From the NCBI GenBank assembly GCA_017958245.1, contig JAGDDC010000019.1:1-14305 (forward strand): a stretch of DNA of 14,305 nucleotides. The letters are read 5' to 3'. The stretch is from Lachnospiraceae bacterium. Lineage in GTDB: Bacteria; Bacillota_A; Clostridia; Lachnospirales; Lachnospiraceae. Position numbers and translations under genes: made by a program. The notes beneath the pieces are model-generated. The model was not told where the DNA came from. It worked only from the letters and a program-made list of their open reading frames with translations, and searched no databases. Of the stretch, positions 525 to 14,305 are shown one piece after another. How positions within the stretch are numbered: position 1 is the stretch's first letter; each line of letters opens with the position of its first letter.

Positions 525-565
525 AAGATGATTTTATATGTAAAGTGCTTAAATGGAGAGATTTT

Positions 566-3500
566 ATGAGTTCCGAAGACACTATGACCACAAACGTGCT
601 CGATAAGATGCCGGTTGGCTTCATTATCGTAAGCATCATGAGGGACAAGTCGGGAGCACCCTACGACCTTTTTACGGAGTACCTCAACGCCGAAGCCGCA
701 AGGCTTGAAAACCTCAACTATAACGTCATGATAAACACGGAGTACTACGAGCTCTTCCCCGAGAAGCCGAGGACTCTTCTCGAACTGTGCTCTGAAGTAG
801 TCTCCACGGGCATGGTGCGCGAGTACAGCTCGTACAGGCCAAGAGTCAACAAGCACATTCATTTGCTGTGCTATTCAATAGGAGATGACCGCTGTGCCAT
901 CATCCTGTCCGACAAATCAGAAGCTTTCTCCAACAAGAAAACGATCGAGAAGCAGGCCAACACCCTGCAGAAGATATATGACACGCTTGAGACAGGCATC
1001 TTCCAGTTAAAAGACGACGACCTGCTGACCATCAAGCGCGGGAACCGCTGCGCCTATCAGATACTCGGGTACACGCGCAACGAGTTTGAGCGCGACAACG
1101 GATCGAGCTTTCTTGCGGTGTGCGTAAGAGAAGACTTTGAACAGCTCAGGGAGAAGCTGAACAACCTCTTCCTCTACGGCGATGGCCTGAGGCTCGAGCA
1201 CAGGGTCCACAACAGGAAGGGTGATGTCATCTGGATACACTCGTTCTTCAGAAGGACCAGAAACATGGACAACGAGGAGATCATCCAGCTTGAGTTCCGT
1301 AACTGTACCGTCAGGAAGAAGCTCCAGGCGGACATGGAGCAGGAGAGAGAGCGTTACCGTCTGGCAATGCTCAACTCGAGCGACATCATTTGCGAGTACG
1401 ATATAGAGAACAACATAGGCATACGCTACGGGTCGATACTCGATCCCTCCGTATCGAAGAGCAAACCGCAGTACATATACAACTACATTGAGAAGGTGAA
1501 GAGCGGACAGATAGTGTCCGAGGAGTTCGTGACCTCATTCCTCGACTACCTTCAGTCATGCTGCGGCGGCACGCTCACGACGAGGATGTACTTCGATTCA
1601 AAGAACGGCAAGAGCCTTCTGTGGGTGGTACTTGAGAGCTACGTTCTGCGCCGCGAGGGGAAGCCCGTCAGGATGATCGGAAAGATAAAGAGCATCCAGC
1701 ATGAGAAGGAAAAAGAGGAGAAGCTCGAGGACGACGCAAGGCGCGACAGGCTCACGAGGCTCTACTCCGGAAACTTTGCAGAGCAGTACGTGAGAAACTA
1801 TTTCAACCAGCACGATAACTCGCATATGAGCGCGCTCTACATGATAAAGATGGATGAGATGGAGCTCATCAACGAGAAGTACGGAAGGACCTTCGGGGAT
1901 TCCGTCATAGTTGAGTTCGCAGAGATCCTGCAGGATCTTGTGAAGGGCAACGACATAGCCTTCAGACTGAGCGGTGACAGCTTCGGACTTTTCTACAACA
2001 AGATTGAGACGGAGTATGCGAACTTCATTGCGAGGACCATCTGCGAGAGAGTGAACGACATTTACGTCGGCGAGGACAGCGAGATCAGGCCCTCGTGTAC
2101 GATAGGCATAGTCATGGAGGAGCCGGGGATGACGGCCGACGTCATGCTCGCCCACGGCAGTTCGCTGATCACGCACCTGAAGGAGAGCGGCAAGAACTAC
2201 TATTCCTTCTACTCGAACGCGGTCGAGAAGCTCGCTACGCAGCTTGAAGACCTGTTCATGAGGCCTGCGGAGACCGAGGAGCTCATCAGGGAGAGCCCGG
2301 TCTACAAGAACGACATAGTTTATTTCGCGCACACAATACTCGAGAAGACGAGGGACACGGACAGCGCGATCAACCTGTTGCTTGAGCGTATTGGCAAGCT
2401 CTTCGGGCTTGAGACCATAGCGGTCATAAACGTCGACATGAACTACCTGACGTGCACGACCGAGTACAAGTGGGATGTCATCGAGGGTATCATCAGGAAG
2501 AAGGAGATATCGCATTTTATAAAGCGCGAAGGCGAAGATGATCTGTCCATCCTAAACGACCTGAACAGAAACTCGGCCTTCGTGATCACAAGGGAGAAGT
2601 TCTTTGAAGCTTTTCCGGGCGGGGGCGAGATCATTTCGAGGACCAGAAGAAACTCGTTCGTGGTCTGCCCGAGCATGGAGAACGAGGTGCTCGACGGGAT
2701 CATTTGCTACGAGGAGGATGACCACGAGAGAGTATGGCAGCAGTCGGAGCTCAAGGCTTTCTCGGAGCTCACGAGCATCATCTTTGCCCATGTCAAGAAG
2801 GAGAAGGCTTCTATAGCGAGCCGCGCAAAGACGGAGTTCCTCTCCAAGATGTCTCATGAGATCAGAACCCCTATGAACGCGATACTTGGCATGACGGACA
2901 TCGCAAAGAAGAGCATAGGGAGCGACGACAAGGTCTTAGAGTGCCTAAAGAAGATCGATTCCGCTTCGAAGTTCCTGCTGTCGCTCATAAACGACGTGCT
3001 CGATATCTCGAAGATCGAGAGCGGCAAGCTTGAACTCGCGCAGAACGCCATGAGTCTCGACGACGTCGTGAGCCAGATAGAGGACGTTTTCTCACCTCTT
3101 GCGGAGAGCTCGGGCATAGAGTTCGAGATCGTGAGGGACTACAGGGAGAAGTTCTTCTACTCTGACAAGACGAAGCTGAACCAGATACTCGTAAACCTCG
3201 TGGGCAACGCGCTCAAGTTCACCCCGAAGGGCGGAAAGATAACCCTCAAGGTGATCCAGGTCTCGGATGTGTACGACCTGAAGGAGCACGGCGTCTTAAA
3301 GAACCGCTATGCGGACATTTATTTCAGCATCAAGGATACCGGCATAGGCATAGAAAAGGATGCCCAGGAGAGGATATTCAGGGCTTTCGAGCAGGCGAAC
3401 GCCAACGTCTCCGCAAGCTACGGCGGCACGGGACTCGGACTTCCGATCAGCTCGAACATAGTGTCAATGATGGGAGGAGCGCTCGAGGTAAACAGCGAGC

Positions 3501-3991
3501 CCGGCAAGGGGAGCGAGTTCTTCTTCACGATCCCTCTGCAGATATCAGACAGCATACTCAAGACCTACAACAGCAAAAAGTCTGTTGAGGAGTACGATTT
3601 CACCGGCAAGAGGATACTCGTGGTCGAGGACAACGAGCTCAACAGGGAGATCGCAAACACCCTGCTGCGCGAGACCGGCTTCGAGTGCGACAACGCGGAG
3701 AACGGCGAGGTCGCGGTGGAGAAGTTCACAAAGAGCAAGGAAGGGTATTACGACGCGATCCTCATGGACATCAGGATGCCTGTGCTTGACGGCATAGGGG
3801 CGACCGTTCAGATAAGGAACTTAAAGAGGAACGACGCGAGGACCATCCCCATCATAGCCATGACCGCAAACGCTTTCGACGAGGACACGAAGAGATCTTT
3901 GAGCAACGGCATGGACGGGCATCTGACCAAGCCGATAGACGTAAAGACGCTGTATGAGACACTGTATGACATAATCTATGAAAGGAATTAA
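566..3991 (+). CDS. Large cytoplasmic hybrid histidine kinase: PAS repeats, degenerate GGDEF, GAF-like, HisKA, HATPase, receiver
   Basis: A 1141-residue sensor kinase, numbered here from ATG 566. That start is preferred to the in-frame GTG at 545 because GGAGAG (555-560) sits 5 bases before it. No transmembrane segment or signal peptide is visible, so the protein should sense intracellular signals. Approximate order: PAS-like regions at 15-110, 130-255 and 262-385; a GGDEF-type domain at 390-555 whose signature is SGDSF (469-473), so cyclase activity is unlikely; a GAF-like region at 575-745; HisKA with the H-box MSHEIRTPMN and phospho-acceptor H764; HATPase with N-box near 872-882, DTGIGI at 924 and GGTGLGL at 953; and a receiver at 1015-1135 with acidic VVEDN and phospho-acceptor D1068 in MDIRMPV. 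No Hpt or DNA-binding output domain is present, so phosphate presumably passes to a partner encoded elsewhere or the receiver is autoregulatory. The PfkB gene begins 4 bases after its stop, implying co-transcription. Confidence 0.9.
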   Translation: MSSEDTMTTNVLDKMPVGFIIVSIMRDKSGAPYDLFTEYLNAEAARLENLNYNVMINTEYYELFPEKPRTLLELCSEVVSTGMVREYSSYRPRVNKHIHLLCYSIGDDRCAIILSDKSEAFSNKKTIEKQANTLQKIYDTLETGIFQLKDDDLLTIKRGNRCAYQILGYTRNEFERDNGSSFLAVCVREDFEQLREKLNNLFLYGDGLRLEHRVHNRKGDVIWIHSFFRRTRNMDNEEIIQLEFRNCTVRKKLQADMEQERERYRLAMLNSSDIICEYDIENNIGIRYGSILDPSVSKSKPQYIYNYIEKVKSGQIVSEEFVTSFLDYLQSCCGGTLTTRMYFDSKNGKSLLWVVLESYVLRREGKPVRMIGKIKSIQHEKEKEEKLEDDARRDRLTRLYSGNFAEQYVRNYFNQHDNSHMSALYMIKMDEMELINEKYGRTFGDSVIVEFAEILQDLVKGNDIAFRLSGDSFGLFYNKIETEYANFIARTICERVNDIYVGEDSEIRPSCTIGIVMEEPGMTADVMLAHGSSLITHLKESGKNYYSFYSNAVEKLATQLEDLFMRPAETEELIRESPVYKNDIVYFAHTILEKTRDTDSAINLLLERIGKLFGLETIAVINVDMNYLTCTTEYKWDVIEGIIRKKEISHFIKREGEDDLSILNDLNRNSAFVITREKFFEAFPGGGEIISRTRRNSFVVCPSMENEVLDGIICYEEDDHERVWQQSELKAFSELTSIIFAHVKKEKASIASRAKTEFLSKMSHEIRTPMNAILGMTDIAKKSIGSDDKVLECLKKIDSASKFLLSLINDVLDISKIESGKLELAQNAMSLDDVVSQIEDVFSPLAESSGIEFEIVRDYREKFFYSDKTKLNQILVNLVGNALKFTPKGGKITLKVIQVSDVYDLKEHGVLKNRYADIYFSIKDTGIGIEKDAQERIFRAFEQANANVSASYGGTGLGLPISSNIVSMMGGALEVNSEPGKGSEFFFTIPLQISDSILKTYNSKKSVEEYDFTGKRILVVEDNELNREIANTLLRETGFECDNAENGEVAVEKFTKSKEGYYDAILMDIRMPVLDGIGATVQIRNLKRNDARTIPIIAMTANAFDEDTKRSLSNGMDGHLTKPIDVKTLYETLYDIIYERN

Positions 3992-3995
3992 GGCT

Positions 3996-4931
3996 ATGGG
4001 TATCTTGGTTATAGGCGCGACTTTCCTCGACATAAAGGGCTTTCCCGAGGACACCTACATACCGGACGGAAGGAACGTCGGGAGGATAGAGTACGTTCAC
4101 GGCGGCGTGAGCCGAAATGTGGTCGAGGACATCGCGAACATGGAGCTGAGACCTACTTATCTCAGCATCGTGGACGATTCGCCTTTAGGCGAGGACGTCA
4201 TAAACAAACTCAAAAACCACAAGGTCAACACAGACTACATAATCAGGATGCCCGGAGGCATGGGCACCTTCCTCGCGATCTTTGACAACTCGGGGAATCT
4301 CGCTGGCTCTATCTCGCAGAGGCCGAATCTTGACAAGATCATGGATGTGCTTGAGGAGAAGGGCGACGAGATAGTCGGGGCATGCGACTCGATCGTGATC
4401 GAGGTCGATATGGACAAGGACATAGTAAAGAAGATCTTAAACCTCGCGGAAGCGCACGGCAAACAGGTCTTCGGCGTGGTCGCGAACATGTCGCTCGCGG
4501 CACACCGCAGGGATCTGATCTCGAGGTTCTCCTGCTTCATATGCAACGAGCTCGAGGCCGGCATACTCTTTGCCGACGATTACACGGACAAGGATCCGGA
4601 GCAAATGAGCGAGATCCTCTCGGAGAAGGTCACGAGGGCTATGATCCCCTCCATGATAGTGACTCTCGGGGACAAGGGCGCCGTGTATGCCGACAAGGAC
4701 GGCAACAGGGGCACGAGCCCCGCAAGAAACGTTCAGGTCAGGGACACGACGGGAGCGGGAGACGCTTTCTGCTCGGGCGTTGCCATAGGGCTGACCTACG
4801 GCAAGAGCCTTGCGGATTCCTGCGAACTGGGCTCCTTCCTCGCAGGCTCCGTGATCACTTCCACGGAGAACGTCTGCCCGAGGTTTTTGCCCGGAGAGCT
4901 GGGACTCGACATAGAAGTTGAAGAAGACTGA
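3996..4931 (+). CDS. PfkB/ribokinase-family carbohydrate or nucleoside kinase
   Basis: A 311-residue cytoplasmic kinase that should transfer phosphate from ATP to a sugar, sugar phosphate or nucleoside hydroxyl. Visible family marks are the N-terminal strand GILVIGATFLDIKG, the substrate-side GGVSRNVVED glycine motif near residues 32-42, and the C-terminal PfkB signature DTTGAGDAFCSG (250-261) with catalytic Asp at about 256. Length is normal for the family. ATG 3996 is chosen because AAAGGA (3981-3986) lies 9 bases upstream. An in-frame ATG at 3978 would overlap the kinase gene by 14 bases and add six residues before the conserved strand. It follows the hybrid kinase by 4 bases and is followed by a terminator, so the two form a unit. 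The substrate cannot be read from the motifs. Pseudouridine kinase-like, ribokinase-like and fructokinase-like roles all remain possible. Confidence 0.88.
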   Translation: MGILVIGATFLDIKGFPEDTYIPDGRNVGRIEYVHGGVSRNVVEDIANMELRPTYLSIVDDSPLGEDVINKLKNHKVNTDYIIRMPGGMGTFLAIFDNSGNLAGSISQRPNLDKIMDVLEEKGDEIVGACDSIVIEVDMDKDIVKKILNLAEAHGKQVFGVVANMSLAAHRRDLISRFSCFICNELEAGILFADDYTDKDPEQMSEILSEKVTRAMIPSMIVTLGDKGAVYADKDGNRGTSPARNVQVRDTTGAGDAFCSGVAIGLTYGKSLADSCELGSFLAGSVITSTENVCPRFLPGELGLDIEVEED

Positions 4932-5064: not shown

Positions 5065-6093
5065 ATGAAAAAGAATTTATCACTTTTTATCATCATAGCG
5101 ACACTCATGGCGATGCTTTCGGGCTGCGTGAGAGAGACAGCGGATGAGAACATACCAAAGATCGGCGAGGCTGACCGTCTCGTCGTCTTTACCTCTCACA
5201 AACCCGAGGTGTACGAGCCCATCATAAGGGAGTTTGAGAAGACTACATCCATCTGGGTCGAGGTCGTGAGCGGAGGCACGAACGAGCTTCTTGAAAGGCT
5301 CAGGGAGTCGGGAAGTTACGAGGCGGACGTGATGTTTGGAGGCGGAGTAGAGAGCCTCGGAGCATTTGCGGACTGCTTCGAGAGCTACGAGAGCAGCGAG
5401 GCAGGCGCCCTGGAGAGCGAGTACGCCTCGAAGGAGGGCATGTACACCGTCTTCTCCTCGCTCCCCATAGTCATTGTCTACAACGACAAGCTCGTATACA
5501 GGCCTTCGGCACCCGCGGGTTTCGCAGACCTTCTTGACGAGAGATGGAAGGGGAAGATCGCCTTCGCGGACCCCGGAAACTCGGGCACGAGCTACACCGC
5601 GCTCGCGAGCATCATGCAGGTGCTGGAAGGAGACAGGTACGAGAATTTGAGACTCTTTTCGGAGGCAGTGCAGACCACGGTCGGAGGATCGGGGGACGTC
5701 ATAAGTGCTGTGAATTCGGGCACAAAGCTCGTAGGGATCACACTCGAAGAATATGCCTTGAAAAACAAGGCTTCGGGGCTCGACATAGGGATAGTGTACC
5801 CCGAGGAGGGGACGAGCGCCATACCGGACGGAGTCGCGCTGATAAAGGGCGCGAGGAACCCGGGAAACGCAAAGAAGTTCATAGACTACGTCGTGAGCCG
5901 CAACGTCCAGCAGTACATCGCGGACAACTTCTACAGGAGGTCCGTGAGGAGCGACGTGAAGTCAGCTACGGGACAGGGACTTGTGGCAGTGGGAGAGCTG
6001 CCTGAGACGATAGATGTGATGAACTATGACCTTGGTTGGGCGAGCGCCCATCAGGGAGAGATCCTGAAGAAATGGAAGGATCTGATGGACTAG
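5065..6093 (+). CDS. FbpA-fold solute-binding lipoprotein of an HptA/PgtC-like sensing trio
   Basis: A 342-residue exported lipoprotein with start MKKN, a hydrophobic stretch at 5-18 and lipobox LSGC with the lipidated cysteine at 21. The mature part is a type II periplasmic binding protein of the iron/sugar-phosphate group. It opens with LVVFTSHKPEVYEPII and has the ligand-side motifs SGGTNELLERL and MFGGGVESL. The tyrosine pairs used by true ferric-iron binders near the C-terminus are not obvious (the region reads NFYRRS). It is followed 49 bases later by a membrane histidine kinase and then an AraC-type regulator, and has no permease of its own. The same composition occurs in HptASR and resembles PgtC of the phosphoglycerate system, where the binding protein presents ligand to the kinase rather than to a transporter. 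A sensory role is therefore favoured over uptake. The ligand is inferred to be anionic, perhaps a sugar phosphate. Confidence 0.82.
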   Translation: MKKNLSLFIIIATLMAMLSGCVRETADENIPKIGEADRLVVFTSHKPEVYEPIIREFEKTTSIWVEVVSGGTNELLERLRESGSYEADVMFGGGVESLGAFADCFESYESSEAGALESEYASKEGMYTVFSSLPIVIVYNDKLVYRPSAPAGFADLLDERWKGKIAFADPGNSGTSYTALASIMQVLEGDRYENLRLFSEAVQTTVGGSGDVISAVNSGTKLVGITLEEYALKNKASGLDIGIVYPEEGTSAIPDGVALIKGARNPGNAKKFIDYVVSRNVQQYIADNFYRRSVRSDVKSATGQGLVAVGELPETIDVMNYDLGWASAHQGEILKKWKDLMD

Positions 6094-6142
6094 CAAGGAA
6101 CGCGGCGACACATAGAAAACACAAGGAACAGGGGATAAGCGG

Positions 6143-7846
6143 ATGAAGAGAGTGATCACATCTTCTTTTAAAAGAGAAATGCTCATAAGCCTGCTGGTAG
6201 TGTCTCTGCTGCCGCTCGTCGTGAGCAGCCTGTTCCTGATAGGCTCGATCAAGGCAAAGATCTCGGGAGACTACGAAAAAGAAGCCCGCGCCCAGCTGCT
6301 CGAGCTTGCAGACGGCTTTTCGGAGCTCATCCGCTCGCTTGAGGAAGCCGACGCGAAGATATGCGAGAACTCAGAACTCTCACTGCTGCTTGAGAGCAGT
6401 GACTTAGACGATCAGAGAGAGGTCTATCAGACTCTGTACGCTGAGACCTCGCAGCTTCGGAGCCGCGCAGGCTTTTCCATATACTCGACCGAGGGAAAGA
6501 GACTTTTTTCGACAAACGGATCATCTTCGGCACAGGCGCTGCCCGTATACTTCGGGATACTGAAACGGTCGCTTGAAAACCCGGATTCGACCATATACGA
6601 CGGAAGTGATTACTCGGAGACGGGGTCATGCGCTGTAAGGTCGTGTCGCGTCATAAAGGAGAGCGGAAAGGTTCGCGGGTTTTTCGTCACGGAGATCTCG
6701 GAGAACGAGATGAAGAAGCTTGTGGAAGGCAAGCTGCAGAACCGCTCCGTGTGCATGATCCTCGACGAGTTCTGGCACGAGATATATTCAAACGAGGAGA
6801 CTGCAGGCTTAAGATCGAGTGAGATACTCAGGTCCGCCATGCTTGAGGGCTTGCAGCCTTCACAGGTAGAAAAGGACAGCAACTTCTATGCCACAGCTGT
6901 AGAAGGGACCGGGTTCAGTATAGTTATCAAGCAGCATGAGATCTTTTCGGAGAGCATCACCGAGAGCATGAACGTGGTCATGCTGACGGTTGCGGGCATC
7001 AGCCTCGTGCTCTGCATCATAGTCGCCGTCGTGCTGAGCAGGCAGCTCACAAAGCCCCTCGACAGCTTCAAGAAGGCTATAGGGCAGCTTGAGAAGGGAA
7101 ACTTAGACGTCTCCGTTGAGGTGAGCAGACATGATGAGTTTCAGGCTCTCTCAGACAGCTTCAACAGCATGACGGGGAAGCTTAAAGGTTATATGGATTA
7201 CGAGGTGAGGAAACAGCACGAGCTTGACGAGGCAAACATCGCCATGCTCCAGGCACAGTTAAACCCCCACTTCCTGTACAACACGCTCGATACCATGAAG
7301 TGGGTCGCAAAGGCAAACGGCCTTACCCAGATCGCAACGATGTCGCAGAACCTCGCAAAGATCCTGCGCTCGAGCATCTCACCGGAGAAGTTTGTGACGC
7401 TTGAAGACGAGTTAAAGCTGTGCAGATCCTACATAGACATACAGACTGTCAGGTTTGAGGGGAAGTTCTCCTTCGAGACCGACGTTCCGGACGACCTTTT
7501 GGATCTCATGGTCCCCAAGCTCATACTTCAGCCTATAGTTGAGAACTCGATCATTCACGGGCTTGAGGACGCGGAAACCGGACACATAAAGATAACCGCG
7601 AGAAAAGAGGGAGAGGATCTCCTAAAGGTCATGGTGACGGACGACGGCTGCGGGATCAGCGGGGAAGTGCTGGATCATTTGAACAGCCATGACAGAAGAC
7701 AGCTCGTGGGCCACATAGGGTTCTTCAACGTCGACACGATCATCAGGATGCACTACGGCGAGCCCTACGGCATGAAGGCCGAGAACATAGAGGGCGGCGG
7801 AGCCTGCGTCACGATAGAGCTGCCGGTCGTAAAGAGCGACCGGTGA
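6143..7846 (+). CDS. YesM/LytS-type membrane sensor histidine kinase (HptS-like)
   Basis: A 567-residue kinase. Transmembrane segments are seen at about 12-35 and 275-298. The roughly 240 residues between them form an extracellular sensor domain, where the lipoprotein encoded just upstream could dock. A HAMP linker follows at about 300-350. The His_kinase (PF06580) block is QLNPHFLYNTLD with phospho-acceptor H376. The ATPase part has an N-box PIVENSIIHGLE (N468) and VTDDGCGI (499-505). The usual G-x-G-L-x-N lid motif reads GHIGFFNV (523-530), an unusual version. AGGGG at about 6130-6134 lies 8 bases before the ATG. The response regulator starts 15 bases after the stop, so they are an operon pair. 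In the related Hpt system the kinase activates its regulator when the binding protein signals ligand. Confidence 0.9.
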   Translation: MKRVITSSFKREMLISLLVVSLLPLVVSSLFLIGSIKAKISGDYEKEARAQLLELADGFSELIRSLEEADAKICENSELSLLLESSDLDDQREVYQTLYAETSQLRSRAGFSIYSTEGKRLFSTNGSSSAQALPVYFGILKRSLENPDSTIYDGSDYSETGSCAVRSCRVIKESGKVRGFFVTEISENEMKKLVEGKLQNRSVCMILDEFWHEIYSNEETAGLRSSEILRSAMLEGLQPSQVEKDSNFYATAVEGTGFSIVIKQHEIFSESITESMNVVMLTVAGISLVLCIIVAVVLSRQLTKPLDSFKKAIGQLEKGNLDVSVEVSRHDEFQALSDSFNSMTGKLKGYMDYEVRKQHELDEANIAMLQAQLNPHFLYNTLDTMKWVAKANGLTQIATMSQNLAKILRSSISPEKFVTLEDELKLCRSYIDIQTVRFEGKFSFETDVPDDLLDLMVPKLILQPIVENSIIHGLEDAETGHIKITARKEGEDLLKVMVTDDGCGISGEVLDHLNSHDRRQLVGHIGFFNVDTIIRMHYGEPYGMKAENIEGGGACVTIELPVVKSDR

Positions 7847-7861
7847 TCACAGGGGGAGACC

Positions 7862-8623
7862 ATGTACAAAGTACTCAGAGTGGATGACGAGACCATCGTC
7901 AGAAAAGGTATCATATCGGAGGTCGACTGGGGCGCGCTTGACTGCGCGGTCGTGGGAGAGGCCTCAAACGGGATCGAGGGGATCGAGGCTTTCGAGAGGT
8001 TCGGACCGGACATAATCATATCGGACATCAGGATGCCCAAGATGGACGGCATAGAGATGGTGAGACAGATCAGGGACAGGGGGAGCGATGTGAGCGTGAT
8101 CTTTCTCACGGCTTACAGCGATTTCACCTACGCCCAGAACGCGATCAAGCTCGTGGCAGCGGACTACCTGCTAAAGCCCTTCGAGGACGGTGAGCTTGAG
8201 GCCTCCATAGAGCGCGTCAAGGAGAAGATCAAGGCTTCGCCCGCGCCCAGGGACGAGGCAAATGAGGCCCTCACCGACCTGCTTTCCGGCGATCCGAGCG
8301 TGTACATAAGGGACGCTGCACAGTACATAAGCAGCAACTGCCGCAAGAACGACCTCTCGGTGGCGATGATCGCGGAGGCGATCGGACTTAGCGAGGGGCA
8401 TTTGAGCAGGACCTTCAAGCAGGAGACCGGAAAGACGCTCGCGTCCTTCATCACGGATTACAGGATGTGCGAGGCGAAGAGGTTGCTTAAGGATCCGCGC
8501 AACAAGGTCTATGAGGTCGCTTCTTTGGTGGGGTTTAAGGACATCACGTACTTTGCGACAACCTTCAAGAAGCACACGGGACTCACGCCCACCGAGTACC
8601 AGAAGAACACGCCGAAAGGATGA
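7862..8623 (+). CDS. AraC-type response regulator (YesN/HptR-like)
   Basis: A 253-residue two-domain transcription factor. The receiver (about 1-125) has the acidic pocket VDDE (7-10), phospho-acceptor D55 in SDIRMPKMDG, FLTAYSD and the conserved lysine in LLKPF. A linker of only about 20 residues leads to an AraC DNA-binding domain (about 150-250). That domain has both helix-turn-helix units: LSVAMIAEAIGLSEGHLSRTF, and VASLVGFKDITYFATTFKKHTG, which contains the family signature. It lacks the long middle domain of bigger YesN proteins, and its size fits the HptR type. An AGGGGGAG site (7851-7858) precedes the ATG by 3 bases. It is the last gene of the trio and is closed by a strong terminator. 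The natural target is the importer operon that starts 244 bases downstream, although this is inference. Confidence 0.92.
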   Translation: MYKVLRVDDETIVRKGIISEVDWGALDCAVVGEASNGIEGIEAFERFGPDIIISDIRMPKMDGIEMVRQIRDRGSDVSVIFLTAYSDFTYAQNAIKLVAADYLLKPFEDGELEASIERVKEKIKASPAPRDEANEALTDLLSGDPSVYIRDAAQYISSNCRKNDLSVAMIAEAIGLSEGHLSRTFKQETGKTLASFITDYRMCEAKRLLKDPRNKVYEVASLVGFKDITYFATTFKKHTGLTPTEYQKNTPKG

Positions 8624-8681
8624 CGGGTCATTTGGTCAGAGTGACGTTTGAGAGTATCATTTGAAAAGAGGATCATGTACA

Positions 8682-8720
8682 AAATGACCACATGTGTAAC
8701 CGCATGTGGTCATTTCTTTG
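8682..8720 (+). terminator. Strong intrinsic terminator after the response regulator
   Basis: Thirteen perfectly paired bases, AAATGACCACATG (8682-8694) with CATGTGGTCATTT (8703-8715). The pairing can extend by two inner pairs to leave a TAAC loop. The 3' arm ends in TTT followed by CTTTG. The symmetrical A- and T-rich ends would also allow termination from the opposite strand. It insulates the sensing trio from the importer operon. Confidence 0.82.
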
Positions 8721-8867
8721 GGCAGAATGTCAGAAATCTTAAACAAATGTTTGATTTGTCGGGTATCGTTTGCGCGGGACAACTGATAGACTTGTGCGTG
8801 AAGGGGGACGACGGGAGTTCATCTTCCGCGTCCGTGGATAAACTTTTTCTTATAAGGAGGATATGAA
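8716..8867 (+). promoter_or_regulatory. Leader of the importer operon, candidate regulator-dependent promoter
   Basis: This 152-base gap must hold the promoter for the importer, because a strong terminator sits upstream. I find no good -35/-10 pair. The best -10-like hexamer is TAGACT (8787-8792), with no matching -35, which would fit an activator-dependent promoter. About 35 bases upstream of it is a near-palindrome CAAATGTTTG (8744-8753) inside ACAAAT-GTTTG-ATTTGT (8743-8759), a possible operator. The ribosome binding site is excellent: AAGGAGG at 8854-8860, 7 bases before ATG 8868. The nearer ATG at 8863 opens a two-codon frame only. Confidence 0.4.
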
Positions 8868-10301
8868 ATGAAATTCAAGAGATTGATCGGTATCGTACTT
8901 GTTTTTGCGATGACCCTCACTTTGCTCACAGCATGTTCGGGCAGCAACGAAGGCGAGAAGCCTGCTGACAAGCCCGCAGAGACAGCAACAGAGGCTCCCA
9001 AGGCTGACGAGCCTGCAAAGGCAGATGAGCCCGCGAAGACAGAAGAGCCCGCAAACCTTACAGCTACACAGCAGATCATCAAGGAAGCTCAGGGCATGAC
9101 GCTCGAGGAGCTTGCAAAGAAGGCTATCGAAGAGTCAAACGGCAAGACCTTCTACGGCGTAGGTAACTCCAGCCGCGGTAAATCGGCTCTTCCGCTTTTC
9201 ATCGAGTACCTCCAGACGATCGACGCAAGCTACAACATGGAGTTCGAGTGGCAGCAGCCCAAGAACAACAAGATCTTCGATCAGCTCACAGCTGATTCGC
9301 TCAAGGACACGGGAACATTTGCCATGACACTCATCCAGGACGGTAACCAGATCGAGTCCAAGATGGTAAAGACAGGCATCCTTGATACTTTCATCCCCAA
9401 GGATTGGGCAGAGGCAAAGGGCGTGACCGCTGATTCTTACGTTGGTTACCTTCCTCTTCAGACACTCAACAAGGTCTTCATGTTCAACAACACCGGTTCC
9501 AAGACCTACACAAACTGCTGGGATTTCGTGGCAGAGGGTGAGCACGGTCTCTACATGGACATCGACTCCGAGATCGTAGGCAAGAACTTCCTCTACATGC
9601 TTACACGCGACGACTACTCACTGTGGCTCAAGGAGTCCTTCGAGGCACTTGATGCTTCAAAGCAGGGACAGTTCCAGGCAGTCATCAACGAGATGGATTC
9701 TGAGGCAGCTGATCTCGGCCTCGGCGAGAACGGCAAGTACGCACTTGCTTGGATCAAGCTCTGGGTAGAGAGCTACAACGCTCAGACAGACGACGGTCCT
9801 ATCTGCAACACTCTTGTTACAAAGTCCGCAACAGATCAGTTCGGTCTTCTCGTTTACTCGAAGCTCCGTTCCGTAGAGGAGTCGGATGACGTTTCCGTAA
9901 ACAACATCCAGGTTGCTGCATACCAGGATGGCTACAAGGGTATCGGCGGATACGGTTACTGCCATTACCTCTTCGTAACAGACAACTCACCTCTTCCTTG
10001 GACAGCATGTGCATTCATCGCATACATGACCTGTACAGCTGACGGTTTCTCCGCATGGGGCAAGGATATGGGCGGTTACTCGTCGAACCCGAAGGTTGCA
10101 GCTGAGACAGAGGCAACTTACGGACACAGCCAGGGCGGTTACGTAGACGGCGTCAACACCTATGACTGCAAGAACGACAGAGGATATGACTGGTGGACAA
10201 CAACAGGCGAGCTCGTACTCGAGGATCCTGAGTACTGCGCATCTGTAGCATTTACAGTAGGCAGCTGGATCGAGATGCTCACCAAGTACGTTCCCGAATA
10301 A
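8868..10301 (+). CDS. ABC importer solute-binding lipoprotein, probably abundantly expressed
   Basis: A 477-residue lipoprotein. Its signal peptide has lipobox LTAC with the lipidated cysteine at 23. Residues 24-57 form a Pro/Ala/Glu/Lys linker with repeated KADEPA-like units that would tether the domain to the membrane. The folded part (about 65-477) is a type II binding protein fused to neither permease nor enzyme. It is rich in aromatic residues (PLPWTACAFIAYMT, WWTTTGELV) that may line the pocket. It is clearly longer than common ferric-iron binding proteins of about 340 residues, and I do not recognise a characterised close relative. Permease and ATPase genes follow directly, which assigns it to an importer. 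Its codons favour GCA, GCT, ACA, CTT and GTT much more than its neighbours do, and its Shine-Dalgarno is near-perfect, both signs of high expression. The ligand is unknown; a phosphorylated or other anionic metabolite is inferred from context. Confidence 0.82.
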   Translation: MKFKRLIGIVLVFAMTLTLLTACSGSNEGEKPADKPAETATEAPKADEPAKADEPAKTEEPANLTATQQIIKEAQGMTLEELAKKAIEESNGKTFYGVGNSSRGKSALPLFIEYLQTIDASYNMEFEWQQPKNNKIFDQLTADSLKDTGTFAMTLIQDGNQIESKMVKTGILDTFIPKDWAEAKGVTADSYVGYLPLQTLNKVFMFNNTGSKTYTNCWDFVAEGEHGLYMDIDSEIVGKNFLYMLTRDDYSLWLKESFEALDASKQGQFQAVINEMDSEAADLGLGENGKYALAWIKLWVESYNAQTDDGPICNTLVTKSATDQFGLLVYSKLRSVEESDDVSVNNIQVAAYQDGYKGIGGYGYCHYLFVTDNSPLPWTACAFIAYMTCTADGFSAWGKDMGGYSSNPKVAAETEATYGHSQGGYVDGVNTYDCKNDRGYDWWTTTGELVLEDPEYCASVAFTVGSWIEMLTKYVPE

Positions 10302-10315
10302 GACACCGCAGTAAA

Positions 10316-10353
10316 TTTTATAGGGCTGCCACATGTGTGACAGCCCTGTAAAA
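10316..10353 (+). promoter_or_regulatory. Intercistronic hairpin between binding-protein and permease genes
   Basis: AGGGCTG (10322-10328) pairs with CAGCCCT (10341-10347). The stem is extended inward by three pairs past one C/A mismatch, and outward by an A/T-rich stretch (TTTTAT with GTAAAA). It is not followed by a T-run on the + strand, so it is not a classical terminator. Such hairpins after binding-protein genes commonly protect the upstream mRNA from 3' decay or attenuate read-through, giving more binding protein than membrane components. That function is inferred. Confidence 0.6.
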
Positions 10354-10375
10354 AATTTGAAGAGAGGATAAAACA

Positions 10376-12193
10376 ATGACCGGCGCGATAGTCAGAAATA
10401 AAATCAAAACCTTCTTTTCAAAGCCGCAGAATGTCATCCTCGTTCTCTTTGGACTCGTGCTCACGTTCACGACATTTGCACCGATCATAGCGATCGTCAA
10501 GGATACGATCTCAGTCCATCCGGGAACTATCGACGAGAACCTCATTTCGAGAGGTCTGGCTTCTGAGATAGACGGCTATACGCTCGCCAACTACACGGAT
10601 CTCTTCACCTCGAAGCTTGCGAAGGCAAACCTGTGGACACCGCTTTTGAACACTGTTTTGCTTGCGACCTTCTCATGTATCATTTCGATACTCTACGGTG
10701 GGATCTTTGCTTTCTTGGTCACGCGTACCAACATGAAGTTTAAGAAGTACTTAAGCTCCATCTTTATCTTTCCCTACATCATGCCGCAGTGGACTCTTGC
10801 CGTTGTATGGCAGAACCTCTTCAACAGCAACGCCGTGACCGGTACCTCGGACGGTTTGCTGGCAGGGCTCTTTGGCATAAACATGCCGAGCTGGTGGTGT
10901 CAGGGACTTTTCCCAAGCGCCCTGGTGCTGGGACTCCATTACGCGCCATTTGCGTATATACTGATAGGCGGGATCTTCAAGAACATGGATGCAAACCTTG
11001 AAGAGGCAGCTACGATACTCGATACGCCCAAGTACAAGACCATGTTCAGGATCACACTTCCGATGGTCAAGCCCGCTATACTCTCGACGATCCTTCTGGT
11101 GTTCGGACGCGCGATGGGAAGTTACCCCGTACCCCATTATCTGGGTCTTACGACACTCTCGACCAAGTATATCTCGATGAACTCCAAGTACACAGGAGAG
11201 GCGAGTATACTGGCGATCATCATGATGCTCTTCGGCATCGCGATCATGTTTGCGAACCAAATGAGTCTGAAGAGCAGAAAGAGTTACACCACAGTCACCG
11301 GAAAGTCGGGACAGATCTCGAAGATCAACATCGGCAAGATCGGGAAATACATCGTGGGAGCGGTATTTGCGATCACGACCTTCCTTACGAGTATATTCCC
11401 CATCATATCATTTGCGTTTGAGACCTTCCTCCCGAACCCCGGAGACTACAGCTTCCTGAAGACCGGAAACACCGCGTTTCTCACAACAAAGTGGTGGATC
11501 ACGAGTGAGAACATCACCGAGAACGGCATGTACGGTCAGCAGGGCGTGCTCTACAATTCGACTATCTGGAAGGCTTTCGGCGGAACACTGCTCGTTTCCG
11601 TGCTCTGTGCGCTGATCGCCGGCACTATAGGAACGCTCATAGGCTATGCGGTCTCGAAAAACAGGAGGGCGAAGCTTTCAACCTACGTAAACTCGGTTGC
11701 TTTCCTGCCTTACCTCATGCCTTCGATCGCTGTAGGTATCGCGTTCTTCATCCTCTTCTCGAACGAGAGAGTGAACCTTTTCAACACCTATACGCTGCTT
11801 GTCATAGTGGGTACGGTCAAATACATACCTTTCGCGAGCCGAAGCTCGCTGAACTCCATGCTGCAGCTTTCGGGTGAGATCGAGGAGGCGGCGGTGATAC
11901 AGGACATCCCGTGGTTCAAGAGAATGTTCAAGATCATCATCCCCATACAGAAATCCTCGATCATCAGCGGCTATCTGCTGCCGTTCATGACGTGTCTGAG
12001 AGAGCTGTCGCTGTTCATGCTCCTGTGTGTTCAGGGCTTCATCGTAGCGACAACGCTCGATTACTTTGATGAGATGGGTCTCTACGCTTTCTCGAGCGCC
12101 ATCAACCTGATACTCATCATAGTCATCCTGCTGTTCAACACGCTTGTGAACAAGCTTACAGGCGCAAGTCTTGATTCGGGAATCGGAGGTTAA
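10376..12193 (+). CDS. ABC importer permease, two fused transmembrane domains (ferric-iron/AfuB class)
   Basis: A 605-residue inner-membrane protein with about twelve hydrophobic helices arranged as two homologous halves (about 20-300 and 320-600). One polypeptide therefore supplies both transmembrane domains, as in FbpB/AfuB-type permeases. Each half has an EAA coupling loop that contacts the ATPase: EEAATILDTPKYKTMF at 209-224 and EEAAVIQDIPWFKRMF at 503-518. In both, the residue normally Gly (EAA-x3-G) is Asp (D216, D510). AGAGAGG lies 5' of ATG 10376. The ATPase gene begins 3 bases after the stop. Annotation pipelines would likely call this an iron permease, but members of the class also move sugar phosphates, thiamine and other anions. 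The class is therefore firm and the substrate open. Confidence 0.9.
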   Translation: MTGAIVRNKIKTFFSKPQNVILVLFGLVLTFTTFAPIIAIVKDTISVHPGTIDENLISRGLASEIDGYTLANYTDLFTSKLAKANLWTPLLNTVLLATFSCIISILYGGIFAFLVTRTNMKFKKYLSSIFIFPYIMPQWTLAVVWQNLFNSNAVTGTSDGLLAGLFGINMPSWWCQGLFPSALVLGLHYAPFAYILIGGIFKNMDANLEEAATILDTPKYKTMFRITLPMVKPAILSTILLVFGRAMGSYPVPHYLGLTTLSTKYISMNSKYTGEASILAIIMMLFGIAIMFANQMSLKSRKSYTTVTGKSGQISKINIGKIGKYIVGAVFAITTFLTSIFPIISFAFETFLPNPGDYSFLKTGNTAFLTTKWWITSENITENGMYGQQGVLYNSTIWKAFGGTLLVSVLCALIAGTIGTLIGYAVSKNRRAKLSTYVNSVAFLPYLMPSIAVGIAFFILFSNERVNLFNTYTLLVIVGTVKYIPFASRSSLNSMLQLSGEIEEAAVIQDIPWFKRMFKIIIPIQKSSIISGYLLPFMTCLRELSLFMLLCVQGFIVATTLDYFDEMGLYAFSSAINLILIIVILLFNTLVNKLTGASLDSGIGG

Positions 12194-12196
12194 ACC

Positions 12197-13846
12197 ATGC
12201 CTGAGATTAAATTAACCAATGTTACAAAGAGATGGGGGAAGTTCTACGCTGTCGAGAACCTGAACCTCGATATAGACAACAACTCTTTCATAACGCTGCT
12301 CGGTCCTTCCGGCTGCGGAAAGACCACGACGCTGCGTATGATCGCCGGGCTTGAGACTCCCACGAGCGGAAGGATCACGATCGGTGACAGGGTCGTATTT
12401 GACAGCGAAAAGGGGATCAACGTTCCCGCAAACAAGAGAAAGGTAGGCTTCCTCTTTCAGAACTACGCCCTCTGGCCCAACATGACGGTGTACAAGAACA
12501 TCGCCTTCGGTCTGAACAACATAAAGGACGATTTTGCGAAGGTCGACTACGATTCGAAGGTTGCGGCGAGGATGGCAGAGATCCTCTCAAACCCCAAGGA
12601 GATGACCGACCTCGTGGAGGAGTGCAGGGACAAGAAGGGAAACATCGATGTGAGCCGCGCTCAGCTCATGCTGATCGATCACTACACCATATCGATGATG
12701 ACTGCAAAGAAGCTCCTTGCTCTCAATCTGAACGCGTCAAATGATGCCGGGAAGAAGGCTGAGGCAAAGATCGCCGAGCTCAAGTTGAAGATCGAGAAGA
12801 ACAAGCAGGCTCTTTCCTCAAAGGGCATCAGCTTGAACGAGAACTTCGAGCTTGTAAAGGACGGCAAGGTGATCGTCGAGAAGCGCAAGATGACCGAGGA
12901 GGAGATCGACCTCGCAGTCAGGAGAGTGTCAAGGATCGTAAAGATCGGAATGTTCATGGACAGATATCCCGCAGAGCTCTCCGGCGGACAGCAGCAGCGT
13001 GTCGCCATAGCGCGTACGCTCGCTCCCGAGCCGACGGTGCTCTTCATGGATGAGCCGCTCTCAAACCTCGACGCGAAGCTGAGACTTGAGATGAGATACG
13101 AGCTTCAGAGACTCCACGTTGAGACGGGGAGCACGTTCGTGTACGTTACCCACGATCAGATGGAGGCCATGACGCTCGCGACCAAGATCTGTCTGATCAA
13201 CAACGGAGTGCTCCAGCAGTACGAGCCCCCGCTCTCGGTATACAACAAGCCCAACAACCTGTTTGTCGCTGACTTTGTCGGCAACCCCTCGATCAACTTC
13301 ATAGAGGGAAAGGGAACGCAGGGACAGGACGGCGGACTCTCCCTCAAGGTCTTCGGAGAGCACAACGCCGTATTCCGCGCGAAAGAATCGCTCGATCTCG
13401 GCAAATGGTTCGCGGAGCGCGACAGGCTGAAGGAAGTCGAGGAGTCCGAGAGACTCAGGCTTTCAAAGGACAAGAAGTATGTCGAGAAGGCCAACAAGGA
13501 CGAGGTCTTCAAGTACAACATACCCAAGGCTGTCGAGGATGACTTCGGGATACTCGAGGACGCGGAGCCCACGAACGAGGATTTCGTGCTCGGCGTGAGA
13601 CCGGAGTTCATACACATAGTCGACGACGACGGAATAGAAGGAGTCGTATACGGTGCGATGCCCACAGGTATGGAATCGACAGTGAAGGTGGCCGTAGGAA
13701 ACTTCCTGCTGACATCCGTGATCTTCGGAGGCGTGATCTACAAGATCGGCGACAAGAAGAAGATCAGGATCGACGGCGACAACGTGATGCTCTTTGACAG
13801 AAAGTCGGGAAGGCTCATAACGACCGGAAGTCTCGACATCATGTAA
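12197..13846 (+). CDS. ABC importer ATPase with a large insertion before the LSGGQ signature
   Basis: A 549-residue ATPase of the MalK/PotA/FbpC type that powers the adjacent permease. All catalytic motifs are intact: Walker A GPSGCGKTT (36-44), Q-loop Q88, signature LSGGQ (261-265), Walker B with D285-E286, D-loop SNLD (289-292) and switch H319. It is far longer than the usual 350-370 residues because of two expansions. The first, about residues 111-228, lies between the Q-loop and the signature in the helical subdomain. It includes a coiled-coil-like helix (about 186-206, KKAEAKIAELKLKIEKNKQAL). The second, about 385-450, is highly charged and lies in the C-terminal regulatory part before the TOBE-like motif FVLGVRPE (463-470). 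GGAGG (12185-12189) is 7 bases before the ATG, within the permease stop region, so translation is coupled. With every motif kept, the protein should be active; what the insertions do is unknown. Confidence 0.92.
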   Translation: MPEIKLTNVTKRWGKFYAVENLNLDIDNNSFITLLGPSGCGKTTTLRMIAGLETPTSGRITIGDRVVFDSEKGINVPANKRKVGFLFQNYALWPNMTVYKNIAFGLNNIKDDFAKVDYDSKVAARMAEILSNPKEMTDLVEECRDKKGNIDVSRAQLMLIDHYTISMMTAKKLLALNLNASNDAGKKAEAKIAELKLKIEKNKQALSSKGISLNENFELVKDGKVIVEKRKMTEEEIDLAVRRVSRIVKIGMFMDRYPAELSGGQQQRVAIARTLAPEPTVLFMDEPLSNLDAKLRLEMRYELQRLHVETGSTFVYVTHDQMEAMTLATKICLINNGVLQQYEPPLSVYNKPNNLFVADFVGNPSINFIEGKGTQGQDGGLSLKVFGEHNAVFRAKESLDLGKWFAERDRLKEVEESERLRLSKDKKYVEKANKDEVFKYNIPKAVEDDFGILEDAEPTNEDFVLGVRPEFIHIVDDDGIEGVVYGAMPTGMESTVKVAVGNFLLTSVIFGGVIYKIGDKKKIRIDGDNVMLFDRKSGRLITTGSLDIM

Positions 13847-13882: not shown

Positions 13883-13925
13883 AGCCGGGATAAGCCCAAG
13901 TGCTTATTCCGGCTCTTTTTCTTTC
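13883..13925 (+). terminator. Strong intrinsic terminator of the importer operon
   Basis: A 13-pair stem, AGCCGGGATAAGC (13883-13895) with GCTTATTCCGGCT (13902-13914), includes one G-T wobble and a six-base loop. It is followed by CTTTTTCTTT. It ends the importer transcript 37 bases after the ATPase stop. Confidence 0.9.
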
Positions 13926-13979: not shown

Positions 13980-14305
13980 ATGGAAATAAACATCTACCAC
14001 CTGATAGACGGCGCAAAACAGGCGGAAGGCCTCACCGTGATCATAGATGTGTTCAGGGCGTTCTCTCTGGAGTGCTATCTCTTCGACATGGGAGTCAAGG
14101 AGATAAGGCCCGTGGGGAGCCTTGAGGAGGCTTTCGCGTGGAGGGAAAGAGACCCGGAATGCCTGCTTGTCGGCGAGAGGGGCGGAGTGATGTGTGAAGG
14201 CTTTGATTTCGGCAACTCCCCGTCTTCCATAGTGCCTGAAGCGGTGCGCTCAAGGAGGGTGATACACACGACGAGCGCCGGGACCCAGGGCATAGTAAAT
14301 GCGGT
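13980..14305 (+). CDS. comB: 2-phosphosulfolactate phosphatase family protein, ComB-like (3' end outside window)
   Basis: The first 108 codons of a gene that continues past the right edge. The start ATG at 13980 follows AGGGGGG (13971-13977) closely; no other in-frame start fits as well. Family marks are VIIDVFRAFS (about 20-29, usually IDVLRATS), LLVGERGG, GFDFGNSP and HTTSAGTQG, which together are typical of the ComB fold. Characterised ComB is a Mg2+-dependent phosphatase that removes phosphate from 2-phosphosulfolactate in coenzyme M synthesis in methanogens. Relatives are common in bacteria that make no coenzyme M, and their substrate is mostly unknown. It has its own promoter and lies after the importer terminator, so it is probably not part of that operon. 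Family is confident; the true reaction is uncertain. Confidence 0.85.
   Translation, partial: MEINIYHLIDGAKQAEGLTVIIDVFRAFSLECYLFDMGVKEIRPVGSLEEAFAWRERDPECLLVGERGGVMCEGFDFGNSPSSIVPEAVRSRRVIHTTSAGTQGIVNA

Follow-up and report, generated by a model that had tools for sequence, protein, structure and literature searches.

Here we describe a conserved six-gene module from a Lachnospiraceae bacterium, at positions 5065-13846 of a 14,305-nucleotide (nt) stretch of contig JAGDDC010000019.1 (hereafter the window), in which a sensory trio resembling HptASR of Staphylococcus adjoins an ATP-binding cassette (ABC) importer with a binding protein of its own. The two halves are linked by gene neighbourhood and by their co-occurrence in genomes, and a promoter site upstream of the importer tracks the presence of the sensor, whose phosphate-contacting residues are conserved. 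From these computational observations we consider it probable, at roughly 0.65, that a three-component sensor drives a dedicated importer with a small phosphorylated sugar as its signal.

All six open reading frames (ORFs) lie on the plus strand. The trio comprises an HptA-like sensor lipoprotein (5065-6093; lipobox LSGC, SBP_bac_6/11, binding protein of cluster D), a YesM-type sensor histidine kinase (6143-7846; HAMP, His_kinase PF06580 and HATPase_c) and a response regulator of 253 amino acids (aa) with a receiver and an AraC-type helix-turn-helix domain, HTH_18 (7862-8623). As in HptASR, an HptA-like lipoprotein is thus present together with a YesM-type kinase and a short AraC-type regulator in one operon. 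The importer follows with a 477-aa binding protein of an unnamed family (8868-10301; lipobox LTAC), a fused two-domain permease with two BPD_transp_1 stretches (10376-12193) and an ATPase (ABC_tran) with an inserted domain (12197-13846). The initial annotation had split these genes into two operons, the trio and then the importer, each closed by its own terminator, and strong plus-strand hairpins bear this out at 8682-8715 (-22.0 kcal/mol, z -6.0, with a short U-rich tail) and at 13883-13914 (-21.6 kcal/mol, z -5.2). The former was not picked up by a simple terminator scan.

Scanning 84,980 species, with one genome per species, yielded 430 relatives of the importer binding protein, and the loci of the best 80 by match were surveyed, a sample that is biased to close relatives and in which contig ends cut some modules. 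An HptA-like sensor gene lies near the importer in 64 of these 80 loci (64/72 among those with enough flanking sequence), a relative of the kinase in 63, a relative of the regulator in 62, and the whole trio in 62. Near the importer binding protein, the permease is found in 78 loci and the ATPase in 72. Median identity to the window falls from 80% for the permease and 77% for the importer binding protein to 65% for the ATPase, 52% for the regulator, 47% for the sensor and 36% for the kinase. The sensor gene takes three positions: upstream on the same strand, as in the window (30 loci), divergent (27), or downstream on the same strand (7); in L070 the regulator gene is on the opposite strand. 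Among the 16 loci without a sensor gene nearby, L035, L045, L047 and L048 have one in the genome but outside the fetched locus, L058 and L067 have the trio on another contig, and ten have no close HptA in the genome at the thresholds used, L043 having only a distant one (1.2e-53). As such, the six genes form a conserved module. The pairing of trio and importer had been proposed from the window alone, as something that a neighbourhood survey could have overturned, and the survey upheld it.

Co-occurrence was also followed across two whole orders, in searches limited to a few top-scoring candidates in each genome, so that some genes may have been missed. In the order of the L005 genome (Anaerosporobacter), which we take to be Lachnospirales, the importer is found in 17 of 344 genomes, the sensor (E 1e-60) in 48 and both in 14; the sensor is thus present in 14/17 genomes with the importer versus 34/327 others (Fisher p 8.5e-11, relatedness ignored). 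Thirteen of the 14 co-occurring pairs lie close together on one contig, the exception being genome G517. Furthermore, when the sensor cut is tightened to E 1.3e-128, a value picked with the list already in view, 12 genomes with the closest sensors remain, and every one of them has the importer (p 1.3e-18, relatedness again ignored). In the order of the L021 genome (Flavonifractor), presumably Oscillospirales, the importer occurs in four of 147 genomes, and the sensor in three of those four versus 0/143 others. The genomes on which both searches were centred carry the module themselves; leaving them out, p is still 5e-10 and 2.8e-4, respectively. Moreover, 20 regions were fetched around HptA-like genes of the L005 order, and in two of them (L104 and L105) divergent versions of sensor and importer still adjoin. 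In 11 others the HptA-like gene is accompanied by genes for an ATPase and a fused permease, and the remaining seven show neither arrangement.

Upstream regions of the importer gene were available for the window and for 74 of the 80 loci. They carry a direct repeat with the consensus ATNTCAGAAATTTNAAAAAAATAACAGTTTTGTCC, some 80-150 nt 5' of the start codon, laid out as TCAGAAA-N13-ACAGNTTTGTCC with half-sites 20 base pairs (bp) apart in a 36-bp site, and in most loci a TATAAT-like box follows about 25 nt 3' of the repeat. The candidate regulator site of the window, TCAGAAA...TTGATTTGTC (8727-8762, plus strand), has the same half-site distance and a diverged right half-site, and a candidate -10 element, TAGACT (4/6; 8787-8792, plus strand), lies 25 nt 3' of that half-site, with a spacing like that of its relatives. 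A 36-bp matrix, built from 27 loci of the upstream same-strand order only and with the window left out, gives the window site 20.6 bits. All 38 held-out loci with a sensor in the genome score 6.8-42.9 bits (26 divergent, 7 downstream, 3 cut off and 2 with an unlinked trio), while all nine loci without a close sensor score between -7.1 and -19.1 bits and have no site. Across 1,500 shuffled regions the 99% point is 1.2 bits and the maximum 13.6, under which three of the 38 positives fall. It should be noted that the site of L035 is identical to that of the training locus L025, that sensor presence in L035, L045 and L048 and its absence in L049, L062 and L064 were looked up after scoring, and that two of the negatives are imperfect: the upstream region of L049 spans only 163 nt, and L043 has the distant HptA mentioned above. 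The two loci with an unlinked trio keep the site (L058, 17.8 bits; L067, 15.0 bits). The consensus CAGNTTTGTCC alone had placed the site wrongly in the window and in L069, both of which were placed by the 36-bp matrix.

For 15 further regions the prediction was noted before scanning. Ten out of ten expected positives score 7.8-36.2 bits and in every case exceed all 200 shuffles of the region concerned, although three pairs share the same site, leaving about seven independent positives; all four expected negatives lie below zero, and G517, which has only a distant, unlinked HptA and had been set aside beforehand as ambiguous, has no site. Six loci had yielded no upstream region (L015, L047, L063, L071, L072 and L078), and a scan of the whole loci with the matrix found a site before the importer gene in four of them (21.1-26.1 bits); L072 has none there, and in L047 no upstream sequence is present. 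Searching 30 genomes of relatives for exact matches to the pattern returned 17 sites in 16 genomes, against 2 for the reversed control; 14 of the 17 are importer sites by sequence or position, and the three exact matches elsewhere look like chance; weaker targets would escape such a search. The promoter site thus tracks the presence of the sensor and links the trio to the importer, in keeping with the regulatory link that the initial annotation had proposed. Additional copies of the site stand in L018, 25 nt 5' of the -10 element of a beta-phosphoglucomutase (beta-PGM) gene, and in L054 (8872-9590), before an HD-domain protein gene between the regulator and importer genes (34.4 bits). Weak sites precede the HptA-like gene of L091 and L092 (11.1 and 12.5 bits), and a site-like match of 17.0 bits lies away from the module on the minus strand of L070 (1229-1264).

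What, then, might the sensor bind? Its likeness to HptA, which had been proposed from the window, is borne out: its best matches in the PDB are 6lki and 6lkg (E 5e-32; the 6lk entries are HptA), its predicted model (pLDDT, a confidence score, of 89.8) ranks HptA first in Foldseek, followed by P5PA and AfuA, and sequence alignments place HptA best, then the glucose 6-phosphate protein VcA0625, P5PA and AfuA. In AfuA, Ser37, Ser148, Gly149 and Thr150 are reported to lie around the phosphate (PMC4546632), and for P5PA Ser183 is given as a phosphate contact (PMC8427247). Reading the pairwise alignments, Thr72, Ser173, Gly174, Thr175 and Ser209 of the window sensor align with these contacts, and the cradle (T/S72, S173, G174, S/T175 and S209) is kept in 65 of 65 aligned sensors, the window included. 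The sugar end is unlike that of AfuA, whose His205 and Asp206 are replaced by Glu228 (65/65) and Glu229 (59/65), with an invariant His45-Lys46, and in our reading of the alignment HptA has Glu-Gln at this place. Since this acidic pair matches neither AfuA nor HptA, the ligand may differ from both. The ligand of the sensor is probably a phosphate-bearing sugar. Within the kinase, matches to PDB chains are confined to the core, and none at E 0.01 covers the ectodomain.

The binding protein of the importer is a different matter. On its own sequence it has no match in Pfam, NCBIfam or the PDB, although at least 3,354 relatives were found among 8,000 scored candidates; the 120 listed show 74-96% identity, and the six named ones among them are all called 'hypothetical protein'. 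None was found in viral contigs. A profile search of the PDB gave weak matches of the N-lobe to iron and citrate proteins, and comparison of its confident predicted model (88.1) places it in the AfuA/FbpA fold, with a tie among iron, citrate and sugar-phosphate proteins that does not separate iron from sugar phosphate. The label of 'ferric/AfuA class' derives from the fold and from distant paralogues, not from a family match. However, the protein is only about 9% identical to AfuA, and in a profile alignment, in which positions are approximate at this low identity, both the sugar motif (His205, Asp206 and Glu229) and the Ser37/Thr150 cradle of AfuA are absent. An importer of the AfuA type, as first proposed, is thus matched in fold but not at the aligned pocket positions, and a ligand shared by sensor and importer is not supported. 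The ATPase carries an insert of about 120 residues between the Q loop and the signature (residues 107-228; nt 12515-12880), which measures 111-122 residues in all 72 aligned sequences, the window included. Its sequence varies more than that of the core (mean top-residue frequency 0.58 versus 0.90-0.94), apart from a conserved stretch around ECRDK...LID...TAK, and possibly serves as a regulatory docking part; the ATPases of distant paralogues are shorter. The importer binding protein is encoded twice in L058 and L060, once on either side of a HAD-IA gene, ahead of the permease. A further, distantly related importer of this type (L081, 4553-11421) is found in the genome of L067, Fusobacterium naviforme, with a binding protein of about 28% identity, an ATPase of 371 aa and its own YesM-like kinase and regulator adjoining.

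Additional indications of the substrate come from enzymes encoded beside the modules, for which 121 of the 122 listed accessory genes were analysed, one very long ORF being left out. Thirty-six of the 121 match the HAD hydrolase family PF00702. Counted by similarity to seeds taken from the same 80 loci, Cof-type HAD genes occur at 19 modules, beta-PGM at 16 and HAD-IA at 12; at least one HAD gene lies in or within 2.5 kilobases of 31 of the 80 modules, with none farther out in these loci. A phosphohexomutase gene is present at one locus, and the window itself has no HAD gene. One gene cluster (c12) was dropped as an antisense ORF of a HAD gene. The eight beta-PGM proteins scanned all pass the NCBIfam beta-PGM equivalog cut-off, and that of L018 matches solved beta-PGM structures (E 5e-47). 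The 30 genomes were selected with HAD genes already known from some of them; of their 15 beta-PGM hits, nine lie at the module or trio. For the Oscillospirales set, the beta-PGM tree shows at least two label changes on supported branches, which suggests that the gene was recruited more than once; one gain and one loss would also fit. In other bacteria, beta-glucose 1-phosphate is supplied by GH65 phosphorylases. Among 22 genomes, 17 of them with beta-PGM at the module or trio, a search found no GH65 phosphorylase, while positive controls were found in the same search. It is a tentative and, in our estimate, rather doubtful reading that the module scavenges hexose-1-phosphates, including beta-glucose 1-phosphate, for which class of nutrient we know of no importer. 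On this reading the beta-PGM of the module would act on an imported rather than an internal substrate, because the GH65 phosphorylases, the internal source that we know of, were not found in any of the 22 genomes. Reading the ligand from the enzymes alone was rejected, because 49 of the 80 modules have no HAD gene. The phosphorylated or other anionic ligand proposed at the outset thus gains indirect support on its sugar-phosphate side, through the cradle of the sensor and through the HAD and beta-PGM genes found at part of the modules.

In the mechanism that we favour, the HptA-like lipoprotein would bind a small sugar phosphate extracellularly and, by analogy with HptA and HptS, dock on the YesM-type kinase, which would in turn phosphorylate the AraC-type regulator. 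The regulator may then bind the direct repeat, just 5' of the -35 region, and thereby activate transcription of the importer operon. Import itself would go through another binding protein, that of the importer, which has the FbpA/AfuA fold, and inside the cell HAD phosphatases and, in some species, beta-PGM may feed the sugar phosphate to glycolysis.

Several other explanations must be taken into account. The trio could control the importer in response to another anion, such as a phosphonate, phosphoglycerate, pyridoxal phosphate or a metal-citrate complex. The NCBIfam matches do include the 2-aminoethylphosphonate set PhnS2/PhnU2/PhnT2, which is the best match for sensor and permease, fold comparison of the importer binding protein brings up the metal-citrate protein MctA, and P5PA is closely related to the sensor. 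Yet the Phn matches stay far below their cut-offs (98 of 393 bits for the sensor, 106 of 593 for the permease and 279 of 458 for the ATPase), and the enzymes at part of the modules are beta-PGM, HAD phosphatases and, once, a phosphohexomutase; we therefore regard a different anion as unlikely. Far less plausible still is that the system imports ferric iron under an iron-responsive regulator, the role that its relatives are usually labelled with. The importer binding protein does fall in the FbpA fold class, and some of its distant paralogues are labelled iron(III) transport; in ferric FbpA, however, the iron pair is Tyr-Tyr, and neither binding protein of the window has an adjacent tyrosine pair, a weak test of the iron pocket, as it was made without residue-level alignment to FbpA. 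Moreover, the sensor's closest sequence relatives, HptA, VcA0625, P5PA and AfuA, bind sugar or pyridoxal phosphates, and its glutamates 228 and 229 align with residues that contact sugar in AfuA.

We give hardly any credence to the idea that the gene order is merely kept by descent, with trio and importer functionally uncoupled. Many of the best 80 of 430 loci are related, so that our counts overstate independence, as does the site that L035 shares with L025. Against this stand the three different gene orders, the retention of the site in L058 and L067 although their trio is on another contig, and the lack of a site in the examined regions wherever a close sensor is missing.

Sensory control of an importer by such a trio would join known principles in a new combination, since both the sensory trio (HptASR) and the layout of a sensor-driven importer (CuaDSR) have been described. 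In Staphylococcus, HptA passes the glucose 6-phosphate signal to HptS, with UhpT as the target (PMC8774646). The HptASR-UhpT system of Staphylococcus aureus is alike in its kinds of binding-protein sensor, kinase and regulator, with HptA as the sensor's best PDB relative, whereas the window trio adjoins, instead of UhpT, an ABC importer that has a separate binding protein, has a kinase ectodomain without a PDB relative at the threshold given above, and carries Glu-Glu in place of Glu-Gln. No UhpT/GlpT-family protein passes the cut-off in the 30 relatives' genomes (there is one sub-threshold match), so that the proposed lack of an exchanger beside this trio holds there. AfuABC of Actinobacillus and Citrobacter (PMC4546632) is alike in the fold class of both binding proteins and in the phosphate cradle of the sensor; it differs from the window system in the low identity and missing cradle of the importer protein, the ATPase insert and the adjoining sensory trio. 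In Ruminiclostridium cellulolyticum, the CuaDSR-CuaABC study reports that a sensory binding protein and a two-component system drive a cellobiose importer (PMC10384115). The likeness to our module is one of layout, and this layout, with two binding proteins of which one is linked to kinase and regulator genes, is found in 64/80 loci. Closer to hand are the 11 HptA-like importer clusters of the L005 order (L088-L095, L098, L106 and L107), which likewise encode an HptA-like protein, an ATPase and a fused permease. Nine of them also show genes for a YesM-type kinase and a regulator (L093 and L095 are cut by contig ends), and three have a HAD-IA gene. In contrast to our module, none showed a second member of the importer's binding-protein family, and at 341-372 aa their ATPases are by length without the insert. 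New here is that an HptASR-like trio is combined, instead of with UhpT, with a defined promoter site and an ABC importer whose binding protein belongs to an unnamed family, and we found no description of this module in the open-access literature. If our reading is true, a so far unnamed family of binding proteins, thousands of which occur in gut Bacillota, acquires a function, Gram-positive sugar-phosphate sensing proves not to be confined to UhpT exchangers, and the promoter site and a short list of ligands become directly testable in culturable strains.

The remainder of the window, in which an Rfam scan found no match, holds a few other genes. A large hybrid sensor kinase with PAS, GGDEF, HisKA, ATPase and receiver domains lies upstream of the trio at 545-3991 and has weak relatives in only a few of the 80 loci. 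Directly 5' of the trio, at 3978-4931, is a PfkB-family sugar kinase that falls below the cut-off for all named families; one distant relative (22%) occurs elsewhere in the 80 loci, in L057. A DUF1667 protein is encoded at 63-434, and the start of an ORF at 13980-14305 resembles what we take to be the 2-phosphosulfolactate phosphatase ComB.

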